DNA of 22,952 nucleotides from Alphaproteobacteria bacterium (lineage in GTDB: Bacteria > Pseudomonadota > Alphaproteobacteria > Sphingomonadales > Emcibacteraceae), in contig NVVY01000014.1 of the NCBI GenBank assembly GCA_002749135.1, positions 37,488-60,439 on the forward strand, read 5' to 3'. The first letter of the stretch is position 1; each line of letters opens with the position of its first letter. Under the pieces are notes generated by a model. It worked only from the letters and a program-made list of their open reading frames with translations, made no database searches and was not told where the DNA came from. Shown here in pieces: positions 19,074 through 22,717 of the stretch. Both the position numbers and the translations under genes were made by a program.

Positions 19074-19202
19074 CCCTCCATTCCCTACCGTCTGCGGGGG
19101 CCGTGCCTTTTGGGGCGGGGGTCTTTGAAGGTGAAGCGCTTTTTGTCGATGGCCACATTATATTCCGGATTTACCAATGCCACACGGGTGGTATAGCCCT
19201 GG
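19074..19202 (-). pseudogene. Duplicate 3' end of lolA (remnant)
   Basis: This 129-bp segment matches 22044-22172, the end of intact lolA, with six differences and no gaps. It encodes the last 38-39 residues of LolA (ending KDPRPKRHGPRRR) plus the stop at 19085-19087 and eleven bases beyond. All six differences are transitions that leave the protein unchanged (five third-base, one Leu TTG/CTG). The match stops exactly where repeat A begins at 19202-19203, so the remnant is cut by that repeat. It is not a working gene, but the purely synonymous divergence shows it was a selected gene end before or while it diverged. Confidence 0.93.
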
Positions 19203-19230
19203 ATCAATGGGGTCAGAGTCATTTGATTTT
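19202..19230 (-). repeat. 29-bp RAYT-associated repeat, copy A
   Basis: It is the reverse complement of the repeat whose core is CTCTGACCCCATTGATC and is 26/29 identical to copy B at the other end of the transposase gene. The transposase stop codon (19219-19221) lies inside it. Its outer end abuts the lolA remnant. Confidence 0.88.
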
Positions 19231-19944
19231 AGTTTTCTTTGATTTCTCATGATATGCTTTTGACTTTCTATCTCCGCCCCGTGGCTTTGGCGTTACTCTG
19301 CGTCCTAATGTCTGGGCTATCTGTTGTTTAAACCGCTCATCGCCCAATACCCACCCTTTGCCTGTAACGCTCCTTATATTAGCAATGTCCTTATCTGTTA
19401 TACTATGGTCAAACAGGGCGCGATAAGCTTCACGTCGGTCCGCGTCATTGCGCCCAAGGGTAACATAACAGGCATGGGGTGTTAGCAGTAAAATCTGTTT
19501 ATTCATCGCATTACCCCGGAAACTCGACCAAGGGTATTCCGACGGGTGAGACACCATGGCCGCCCTTACCGGATTAAGCTCAATATAGCGGCTAACCAGC
19601 AACAAATAGAGGGGGCTGTCGATCAGGGTTGATTTATAGCGGCCCTCACATAACGTCCCGGTACGTTTATAGGTCAGATTGATATAGCGGACATACGTCT
19701 GGCCCAGAGACTGCATCATCTGACTAACGCCGGTTTTGGTGCGAGGCGTGACAAGAAGATGAACATGGTTGGTCATCAGGACAAAGGCATGGATCGCTAC
19801 ATTATATTGCTCTGCATATTGCTTTAACTTGTCCAGATAAAATTTATAGTCTTCATCGGTAAAGAAAATTGCCTGACGATTGTTGCCACGTTGGATGATG
19901 TGTTGGGGGACGTCAGGTAAATTCATTCTTGCAAGCCGGGCCAT
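19219..19944 (-). CDS. REP-associated tyrosine transposase (RAYT, Y1 transposase family)
   Basis: This is a single-strand-DNA transposase of the IS200-related RAYT family. The 241-residue product starts MARLARMNLPDVPQHIIQRG, has the metal-binding H60-x-H62 motif (MTNHVHLLV), the helix with candidate catalytic tyrosines Y84/Y87 (GQTYVRYIN) and the RAYT-typical GTLCEGRYKS and SRYIELNPVRA segments. I chose the ATG at 19944 because the family N-terminus begins there and AGAGG lies ten bases upstream; the frame extends 17 codons further without family similarity. Inverted 29-bp repeats A (19202-19230) and B (19998-20026) flank it, and its stop codon is within repeat A. RAYTs usually act on short palindromic repeats in the host genome, so repeats A-E are its probable substrates. 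Confidence 0.93.
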   Translation of the reverse strand: MARLARMNLPDVPQHIIQRGNNRQAIFFTDEDYKFYLDKLKQYAEQYNVAIHAFVLMTNHVHLLVTPRTKTGVSQMMQSLGQTYVRYINLTYKRTGTLCEGRYKSTLIDSPLYLLLVSRYIELNPVRAAMVSHPSEYPWSSFRGNAMNKQILLLTPHACYVTLGRNDADRREAYRALFDHSITDKDIANIRSVTGKGWVLGDERFKQQIAQTLGRRVTPKPRGGDRKSKAYHEKSKKTKIK

Positions 19945-19997
19945 GGTAACATACGCCTCTAATATGTTAAAATATGAGGGTAGCACAGGCAACACAG

Positions 19998-20026
19998 AAA
20001 ATCAATCAACTCTGACCCCATTGATC
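19998..20026 (+). repeat. 29-bp RAYT-associated repeat, copy B
   Basis: Core CTCTGACCCCATTGATC preceded by AAAATCAATCAA. It is identical to copy D, with 33 bp identical when four flanking bases are counted. It can fold with ATCAAT pairing with ATTGAT around a 13-base loop, the imperfect-palindrome form expected of REP-like units. Confidence 0.88.
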
Positions 20027-20055
20027 AAAGGAGAGACTAACACGGGCAGGAAGTT

Positions 20056-20074
20056 AAATCAATTTACTCTGACC
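20056..20074 (+). repeat. RAYT-associated repeat, copy C, left half (split by the IS4-family element)
   Basis: The left part is AAATCAATTTACTCTGACC; the right part continues at 21358-21366. Removing the IS and one 9-bp duplicate restores a full repeat whose ends AATCAAT and ATTGATT form a 7-bp stem, the best-paired of the copies. Confidence 0.82.
20066..20074. repeat. Left 9-bp target-site duplication of the IS4-family element
   Basis: ACTCTGACC directly precedes the left terminal repeat and is repeated exactly at 21349-21357 after the right one. Nine bases is within the range for IS4-family elements. Confidence 0.87.
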
Positions 20075-20091
20075 CATTGCTGTCCCACTTA
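20075..20091 (+). repeat. IS4-family left terminal inverted repeat
   Basis: CATTGCTGTCCCACTTA, an exact inverse match to 21332-21348. Confidence 0.9.
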
Positions 20092-20101
20092 TTTTGAGTT
20101 T

Positions 20102-21247: not shown

Positions 21248-21331
21248 GGCTTGAATCTCTTTGATATTACTAGGTTTTTTGCAACTCCAGTATATCATAA
21301 ATAAGAGATTTAAGCCGCTTTATTTACAACT

Positions 21332-21348
21332 TAAGTGGGACAGCAATG
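21332..21348 (-). repeat. IS4-family right terminal inverted repeat
   Basis: TAAGTGGGACAGCAATG on the plus strand, the exact reverse complement of 20075-20091. Confidence 0.9.
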
Positions 21349-21357
21349 ACTCTGACC
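21349..21357. repeat. Right 9-bp target-site duplication of the IS4-family element
   Basis: ACTCTGACC, identical to 20066-20074; the right half of repeat C (CCATTGATT, 21358-21366) follows directly. Confidence 0.87.
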
Positions 21358-21370
21358 CCATTGATTACAG

Positions 21371-21399
21371 AAAATCAATCAACTCTGACCCCATTGATC
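21371..21399 (+). repeat. 29-bp RAYT-associated repeat, copy D
   Basis: Identical to copy B over 33 bp including four upstream bases. On the minus strand it supplies the last six codons and the TGA stop of the HEPN-like gene at 21379-21825. Confidence 0.88.
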
Positions 21400-21825
21400 C
21401 ATACAATCTTCTACGCCAGCTTCATACTCATCATCTTCATGCTCTAAATCCCTGCGAATTTCATAGCATCTACAAATCCTACGCCATTCTGCTCGACGTA
21501 ATAATCCCATTCGATATGCTAAGTCGATAATCTTTGCAGTGGGGTAGTCTTCAATATCTTCAGATTTTGTTACAGGAGGAAGTTTATATTGTTTGGCGGC
21601 TTCTGTGGCAATATCTATGCCTGCTATTACAATTTTTTCACGCAAGTCGTGCATTGAAGCATTGAACAATCTTTGGCAAGCGGAACTTGGGTCAACAGGA
21701 AGTAATTTTCTGACCCTAGAGATCAAGTTCTTAGCCTGCCATTGAGGGCGGATTTGTAACAATAGCTTAGGTACACCAGAATCTTCTACTAGCTCAACAA
21801 CACTAGCTACAATAATATCATTCAT
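21379..21825 (-). pseudogene. HEPN-like protein gene, 3'-truncated by a repeat
   Basis: The frame encodes 148 residues, beginning MNDIIVASVVELVEDSGVPK with GGAGAG upstream of the ATG. Near the end, CYEIRRDLEHEDDEYEAG contains R124-x4-H129, the R-x4-6-H motif of HEPN ribonucleases, so I assign it tentatively to HEPN-like proteins; the exact family is not recognised. The protein breaks off straight after the motif: the last residues DQWGQS and the TGA are encoded by repeat D (21371-21399). HEPN domains normally continue with another helix after this motif, so the natural C-terminus has been lost. It is AT-rich compared with lolA and zapE. It could be inactive debris or a shortened expressed protein. 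Its surroundings suggest former defence cargo, which is inference. Confidence 0.6.
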
Positions 21826-22043
21826 TTCGCTCTCCTCACATAAAGCATCTAAAGTTATATATTTTATCAGTCATATTCGCATTTTGCTTGAGTACACGCG
21901 CATAAAAGATCAATGGTGTCAGAGTCATTCGATATTTTTTCTTGGGACATTATTTCATAACCTATTGATTTTAACGTTTTTCTACCAAAATAATTTTGAG
22001 AATTGATAGTGTCATGGCAATACAATATGGCAATTATATATAT
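21826..22043. other. AT-rich spacer between the HEPN-like gene and lolA
   Basis: I see no gene here. It holds repeat copy E (21908-21936) and a 13-bp near-palindrome CAAAATAATTTTG (21986-21998). No clear terminator follows the intact lolA stop on this side. Confidence 0.5.
21908..21936 (-). repeat. 29-bp RAYT-associated repeat, copy E
   Basis: It is in the same orientation as copy A and matches it at 26 of 29 positions, with one change inside the core (GGTGTC for GGGGTC). With copy D it brackets the HEPN-like gene as an inverted pair. Confidence 0.8.
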
Positions 22044-22054
22044 CCCTCCATTCC

Positions 22055-22717
22055 CTACCGCCTGCGGGGGCCGTGTCTTTTGGGGCGGGGGTCTTTGAAG
22101 GTGAAGCGTTTTTTGTCGATGGCCACATTATATTCCGGGTTTACCAGTGCCACACGGGTGGTATAGCCTTGGGCATCGACGCTCTCCCACGCACGAAGCT
22201 CCATGGTGCTTTCCTCAAAGATCAGGATGATATAGCCGTAATCCCGCCGTTTGGGATCAATCACCGGAATTTTAATCAGTCCGGCAAAGCGGATAATGTC
22301 AGGGATTTCAACACTGCTGTCCAGCTTGATTTCTTTCTCCACCAATATGCCCAGCGGGGTTTTCTTGATCGGCCAGCGGTTGACCTGTTTGACCTCATAA
22401 TCAACGAAGGTCAGCAGGGTGCCGTTGCTGACCACCAGAAAGGGCGCATCCTTGCCATAATCAAACCGCAACTTGCCGGGCCGTTCCAGATAGACCATGC
22501 CTTCGGCCACCGTCCCGTCCGGCGCCCGCTGGACAAAGGACGCGCGCAGGGAATGGATAGCATTCAGGCTTTCCTCCACCTTTTTGATGGTCTCAAGGTC
22601 TTTAGCAGACCGCTCAACAGGGATGATACTATCCGGTTTGGCAGCAAGGGCCGCGCCGGACAGGCCCAACATGGCCAACAGGCCAAACAGGATAATTTTA
22701 GGGAATTTAAGGGTCAT
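22055..22717 (-). CDS. lolA: LolA-family outer-membrane lipoprotein carrier protein
   Basis: This is the periplasmic chaperone that takes lipoproteins released by LolCDE to the outer membrane. The 220-residue product has a signal peptide (hydrophobic stretch ILFGLLAMLGLSGAALAA, probable cleavage after about residue 25) and the LolA beta-barrel region with LRASFVQ, GMVYLERPGKLRFDY and LLTFVDYEVKQVNRWPI. A basic tail KRHGPRRR ends the protein. The ATG at 22717 has GGAGG seven bases upstream and overlaps the end of ftsK by 11 bases, so the two are coupled. Its last 118 coding bases are duplicated at 19074-19202 with only synonymous changes, so the present 3' end may have been replaced by incoming DNA while keeping the protein intact. 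Confidence 0.93.
   Translation of the reverse strand: MTLKFPKIILFGLLAMLGLSGAALAAKPDSIIPVERSAKDLETIKKVEESLNAIHSLRASFVQRAPDGTVAEGMVYLERPGKLRFDYGKDAPFLVVSNGTLLTFVDYEVKQVNRWPIKKTPLGILVEKEIKLDSSVEIPDIIRFAGLIKIPVIDPKRRDYGYIILIFEESTMELRAWESVDAQGYTTRVALVNPEYNVAIDKKRFTFKDPRPKRHGPRRR

Follow-up and report, generated by a model that had tools for sequence, protein, structure and literature searches.

In the sections cited here, two papers describe the systems closest to the locus reported below. Di Nocera and colleagues defined in 2013 the TIRtron, a RAYT-type Y1 gene flanked by GGGGWSAS inverted repeats and not by GTAG palindromes, and named its enzyme TIRYT (PMC3733652), a term that appeared, in the literature searched, in these two papers only. 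According to these sections, 20 of 26 TIRYT examples fall in TnpAY1 subclass 2.1 (PMC6006769), dispersed genomic repeat copies are reported for some members, and the mobility of these elements is presented as an open question (PMC3733652, PMC6006769). Here, we analysed a stretch of 22,952 nt from contig NVVY01000014.1 (hereafter the window; contig C57 of the source genome G000, other G numbers denoting relatives), in which a TIRtron lies between two copies of the 3' end of lolA. We consider it probable, by a modest measure, that the left copy derives from the lolA allele of a related lineage, as a 3' fragment attached to the TIRtron at its outer end, the whole being a mosaic built by recombination between TIRtrons and by rearrangement.

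The element of the window, TIRtron A, resembles the described TIRtrons in three respects. Its gene encodes an HuH/Y1 protein with the Y---NP motif (YIELNP in the translation, which also contains NHVHLL), its flanking inverted repeats fit GGGGWSAS (they read GGGGTCAG at both ends), and repeat copies are dispersed in the genome. With up to two mismatches, 18 sites of the repeat family were found in G000, five of them in this insert, and none with the reversed pattern used as control. Over 12 genomes, the same search gave 89 sites vs. 2 for the control (one in G002, one in G011), and part of the two-mismatch sites may hence be due to chance. Within the insert, copies of GATCAATGGGGTCAGAGT and its flanks recur. 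A related element with the same ends and 79% DNA identity over 19208-20026 is carried by G010, where it forms a second intact TIRtron. The TIRYT protein showed no relative of known structure by sequence (E 0.01). Subclass 2.1 has a C-terminal domain of helix-turn-helix type; among Pfam families, no such match was obtained for TIRYT at E 0.001. REPtrons (REPIN-RAYT systems) share with this locus the transposase superfamily and the clustering of short inverted repeats. However, the repeats here read GGGGTCAGAGT, without a GTAG/GTGG tag by eye, and the NCBIfam profile REP_Tyr_transpos gives 63.2 bits, below its cut-off of 80. A literature search combining the words of the repeat sequence with transposase returned matches that are unrelated by title. 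What separates the locus from the described TIRtrons is that here the repeats connect with fragments of two unrelated protein genes, of which one is apparently a foreign allele, an arrangement that does not figure in the cited sections of either paper (PMC3733652, PMC6006769).

The first of these genes is lolA. Self-comparison of the window revealed a direct repeat (19068-19202 vs. 22038-22172) of 135 bp with 94% identity and a spacing of 2970, well above chance (BLAST E 8e-55). The original prediction had described it as 129 bp with six silent transitions; these positions are exact (19091, 19106, 19139, 19169, 19177, and 19199 in the left copy) and the repeat runs 6 bp further left. All six in-gene differences are synonymous transitions, and both copies translate into the same 38 residues followed by a stop. 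Two further differences (19071 and 19073) fall within the 17 bp past the lolA stop codon, and the longest identical runs between the copies reach 32 bp. To look for additional duplicated gene ends near TIRYT repeats, we searched 633 kb of G000 and related genomes for self-repeats of at least 60 bp; among the 15 listed, the lolA-end repeat alone exceeds 80% identity, the 14 others each lying below this value. Likewise, the DNA that follows the G010 TIRtron, a query partly made of N, has no second copy in G010.

Of the 117 possible transitions in the coding stretch, 40 are silent; six silent changes out of six therefore have a hypergeometric probability of 0.0012, and the five changes found in the left copy only, all silent, one of 0.0039, if rates are equal across sites, as the test presumes. 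As such a series is unlikely in a drifting useless copy, the left piece probably served until recently as a functional lolA end in a different lineage. The divergence between the copies is of the same order as the distance to the neighbouring genomes. Over the 135 bp, left and right differ at 8 positions, right and G009 at 7, and left and G009 at 11, while G009 shows 92.4% identity to G000 over 8.3 kb on the lolA side (7.6% difference) and G014 shows 91.8% over 10.3 kb. From these distances, the left piece is best taken as an allele whose lineage is roughly as distant as the neighbouring genomes. The right, intact copy is collinear with G009 for 8.3 kb and for 28 bp beyond the stop codon, which leans towards the right copy as the resident allele, although an allele-replacing recombination would look alike.

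The silent divergence and the distances thus support the idea of the original prediction in that the two ends look like alleles of different lineages. Its proposal that the left copy is the ancestral end is not supported: the right copy is the one collinear with G009, with the reservation just made, and the argument from a terminator behind the left copy fails. The sole terminator-like site on the left side is a minus-strand hairpin at 18916-18937, and 2 such sites were found in 18700-22300 vs. 3.5 expected in shuffles. In both G009 and G014, the DNA around this hairpin is likewise conserved ahead of zapE, without lolA beside it; the hairpin therefore belongs to the conserved zapE block and was rejected as a lolA terminator.

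The homology of the left lolA copy stops at 19202, exactly where the terminal inverted repeat of TIRtron A starts, the two having one base in common. At the opposite end of the repeat cluster, a second gene, which we call gene X, is cut next to another repeat copy. It matches its family through residue 141, after which come 3 nt and then the repeat, which supplies the final codons of the open reading frame (ORF). This family counts 187 proteins at E ≤0.001, own entry included, from candidates bounded at ~259 aa; the homologs among the 120 listed share 57-77% identity and bear source names from several phyla, among these names Aeromonas, Vibrio, Streptomyces, and a Dethiobacteria metagenome-assembled genome. 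Eight of the 11 aligned homologs extend at least 40 residues beyond residue 141, whereas the copy of the window does not. At E 0.001, the family was seen solely in G000 among nine genomes of the genus, and the missing 3' part, as would be carried by the reciprocal product of a TIRtron recombination, was found neither in G000 nor in the eight relatives. A weak C-terminal match in G008 (E 0.07) has no repeat within the 200 bp before it. The gene X proteins tried gave no PADLOC or NCBIfam match, one homolog showing two sub-threshold Pfam matches only. Since the cuts in two unrelated genes both fall at the outer end of this repeat, the joins were probably made by, or through, TIRtrons. Neither the inverted repeats nor the cut in gene X figured in the original prediction.

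The remainder of the insert is of the same nature, and the patch 18966-22037 is largely mobile-element debris on a rearrangement junction (Table 1). Next to TIRtron A, the segment 20034-20079 has an 85% match to the leader of the TIRtron in G010. The repeat copy that follows is split into 20056-20074 and 21349-21366 by an insertion sequence (IS) of the IS4 family, whose transposase gene occupies 20102-21298 and whose 9-bp target duplication, ACTCTGACC, is found at 20066-20074 and 21349-21357. The accessory character of the DNA between the copies, as originally proposed, is supported by the close relative G009, which has different cargo at the same point.

Table 1. Features of the window around the two lolA 3' ends.
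Feature	Position	Strand	Evidence
zapE	17722..18879	-	PF03969 E 3.9e-109; homology to G009/G014 extends only to 18964/18965
IS-end-like sequence (18974-19004) and overlapping dispersed palindromic repeat (18992-19030)	18974..19030	+	Copies elsewhere
Left repeat copy, 3' part of another lolA allele, probably xenologous	19068..19202	-	Self-repeat, allele distances, synonymy test
TIRtron A: TIRYT gene within outward-facing inverted repeats (19203-19230, 19998-20026)	19202..20026	-	34-nt arms, 85% complementary
TIRYT, single-strand transposase of the Y1/HuH type, called as 258 aa, conserved from Met 18 onwards	19219..19995	-	PF01797 E 3.2e-15
Remains of a second TIRtron (5' leader and repeat), IS-interrupted, resuming at 21349-21366	20027..20074	-	G010 match
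IS4-family insertion sequence, 1274 bp, within a repeat copy	20075..21348	-	NF033592 258.9 bits (cut-off 115)
Repeat copy adjoining gene X	21371..21399	-	29 nt identical to the TIRtron A 5' repeat; repeat family 33 nt, 100%
Gene X, initial 141 codons of a family of longer genes (ORF called 21379-21825, 148 aa)	21400..21825	-	Homolog alignment
Repeat copy nearest intact lolA (repeat proper 21908-21929)	21907..21972	+	66 bp at 80% with G000:C10
Right repeat copy, from lolA codon 183 through the stop and 17 bp beyond	22038..22172	-	Self-repeat alignment
Intact lolA (220 aa)	22055..22717	-	PF03548 E 7.4e-25; 97% to G009 LolA

Conserved synteny breaks off on both sides of this patch. In the four relatives with zapE and lolA on one contig (G011, G013, G017, and G018), the two genes are at least 106 kb apart, and in the other 13 of the 17 relatives having both they stand on separate contigs. 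The original prediction had looked to the lolA-zapE interval of relatives for other cargo: such cargo does occur behind lolA in G009 (a 145-aa protein with two relatives in the protein collection and no Pfam family), while in the four relatives with both on one contig the two genes are not neighbours. With G013 as reference, the geometry would fit an inversion with one end behind lolA and the other upstream of zapE. On the zapE side, copies of the 18974-19030 sequence stand near contig ends in G001 and G002, and G009 has two; the position of the copies near contig ends suggests that 18974-19004 is an IS end. We also surveyed by eye the 500 bp behind lolA in the 14 genus members with a readable flank (G001 lacks a lolA match, and the lolA of G014 runs into a contig end). 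In nine of them, the usual 3' neighbours are a short structured RNA-like element and a gene for a 194-aa acidic protein, which in two of these nine (G002 and G012) come after an insertion; in G000 and G009, this pair is located at other loci. TIRYT-type repeats stand behind lolA in three of the 14 genomes (G000, G009, and G012). The insertion of G012 is another TIRYT type with palindromic GGGGACAG repeats, located ~25 bp after the lolA stop (G012:C267:6892-7557), and the insertion of G002 is an inverted-repeat insertion of different sequence.

We infer the order of the steps, the donor, and the role of the transposase as follows. A TIRYT element would have been inserted into, or strand-joined to, a foreign lolA at codon 182/183, and gene X, located behind the intact lolA, would have harboured another TIRtron copy. 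Recombination between TIRtron copies would have deleted the 5' part of the foreign lolA together with the 3' part of gene X, and a rearrangement, perhaps IS-linked, would have placed zapE beside the patch. The product would read lolA, 5' part of gene X, TIRtrons, 3' end of the foreign lolA, and zapE, with the right-copy lolA staying intact. LolA is essential, and its alignment with a LolA of known structure (9azz) extends to residue 206. As the cut removes part of this fold, the foreign lolA was presumably on incoming DNA or in a two-copy cell.

Several points weigh against this scenario. The cut at codon 182/183 removes residues that align to the solved protein. No genome was found in an intermediate state, i.e. 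with a TIRtron inside lolA, an intact gene X behind lolA, or the reciprocal junction. The scenario presumes that TIRYT is mobile, and the joins are read from the assembly alone, the genome being a draft of 57 contigs. A tree of both lolA copies with relatives, a check proposed in the original prediction, was run on 15 rows and 117 columns; it leaves 9 of 12 inner branches open and places neither copy. Finally, in three of the 11 gene X homologs (P0008, P0036, and P0043), the sequence ends or diverges no more than ~20 residues from the cut, and the size bound on the search for homologs applies here too.

Other histories would also leave a duplicated gene end at this place. The most serious of them, which we nevertheless think unlikely, is a homologous import, in which lolA and cargo of a related strain recombined upstream and, at the other end, joined the resident lolA within codon 183. 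The left copy would then be the resident one and the right copy the donor's, with the TIRtron end standing at the join by coincidence or merely as homology. The allelic, silent divergence of the copies suits this history, and a replaced allele would likewise be collinear upstream with G009, but the join matches the repeat end to the base, and this repeat also marks the cut of another gene. Rather unlikely as well, and slightly more so, is an active, target-selective TIRYT that ligates incoming foreign DNA to resident TIRtrons, with the lolA 3' flank as a recurrent landing zone of the genus. CAGGGC directly follows both intact TIRtrons (G000 and G010), a small sample; at the junction, the foreign lolA allele reads CAGGGC and the intact lolA CAAGGC, and the other flank of the G010 TIRtron, GATGC, equals the bases preceding the junction in intact lolA. 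However, CAGGGC is not directly at the end in the other three of the five ends that retain transposase coding sequence, and no 3' repeat is recognisable at the TIRYT genes of G002 and G004. A chimera of assembly or binning, fusing the sequences of two strains at repeats, is quite improbable. The draft state of the genome, its 4.66% contamination, and a patch made mostly of repeats, near which contigs of several relatives end, speak for it. Nevertheless, the window contains no N, the lolA fragment and the repeat share a single base at their join, which should be too little for an assembler to cross, and an identical 148-aa ORF is listed on two contigs, although the independence of the two is uncertain.

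Two further explanations dispense with a TIRtron. Phage 21 and e14 integrate at the 3' end of icd, and one of the two readings in the original prediction was a decayed element that might have been aimed in the same manner at the lolA 3' end. The likeness is real, since accessory DNA is flanked by directly repeated gene ends that differ silently, the copies share long identical runs, and G009 has other cargo behind lolA. However, the insert is bounded by TIRYT repeats. No PF00589 integrase was detected on C57 (six hits lie elsewhere in G000) nor, among the six genomes searched, on the lolA contigs of G009, G012, and G002, serine recombinases being outside the search. On lolA contigs, PF00589 was present only in G013, where the nearest hit is ~56 kb away from lolA, and in G011, a single-contig genome, where it is >100 kb away. 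In addition, a second lolA end is missing from 29 of the 30 genomes in which lolA was matched, including the cargo-bearing G009, G012, and G002; only G000 has one, although this search may miss a 38-aa fragment in distant genomes and lolA of G014 is cut by a contig end. A literature search on lolA with an integrase attachment site returned nothing beyond Drosophila work. As C57 carries no PF00589 and a second lolA end occurs in only one of the 30 genomes, a lolA-3' integration site is not supported and we judge this explanation very improbable. We give the least credence of all to a tandem duplication of lolA within the lineage followed by decay. It would account for the same gene in direct orientation, but a decaying fragment is not expected to retain six synonymous changes out of six, the shared stretch is limited to 135 bp, and G009 has a single lolA copy.

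Some additional observations concern the surroundings of the main locus. The RNA-like element usually found between lolA and the acidic-protein gene is a conserved stretch of ~180 nt with three hairpins, CU-rich loops, and a terminator-like hairpin. It was present in 12 of the 14 loci scanned; the G000 copy is on C46 (L147:11845-12025), just upstream of 34060. At least one two-sided change was observed in 10 of 24 consensus pairs over 12 sequences. Rfam gave nothing at the gathering score in five loci and nothing credible at E 1 in L140, and the element may represent a small RNA family of Emcibacter relatives that is so far undescribed. Pairs of inward-facing repeats, 0.2-2.4 kb apart, were found in several relatives (L121, L124, L126, L127, L131, L132, L133, and L135), and these loci also show serial repeats of the repeat tail with the same local heptamer; the pairs may be cassettes or, equally, DNA between two insertions. 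On the other side, zapE adjoins a minus-strand tricarboxylic acid cycle cluster (8762-17417) with lpd, sucB, sucA, sucD, sucC, and mdh-like genes, assigned from Pfam domains. The zapE matches are broken in G010:C16 (internal stop, second piece) and in G012:C227/C64 (split over two contigs). A PEP-CTERM-like gene near zapE in G009 and G014 is on another contig in G000 (G000:C6:6786-7475), with an internal TAG.

This locus shows that a duplicated gene end with silent differences is insufficient evidence for an integrase attachment site. In the present case, the left repeat is most likely a scrap of another strain's lolA joined exactly to the end of a mobile element, and not a new docking site for viruses or islands. 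As TIRYT elements are little studied, two unrelated genes cut at the same repeat provide natural evidence of where these elements end and of their joining to new DNA.

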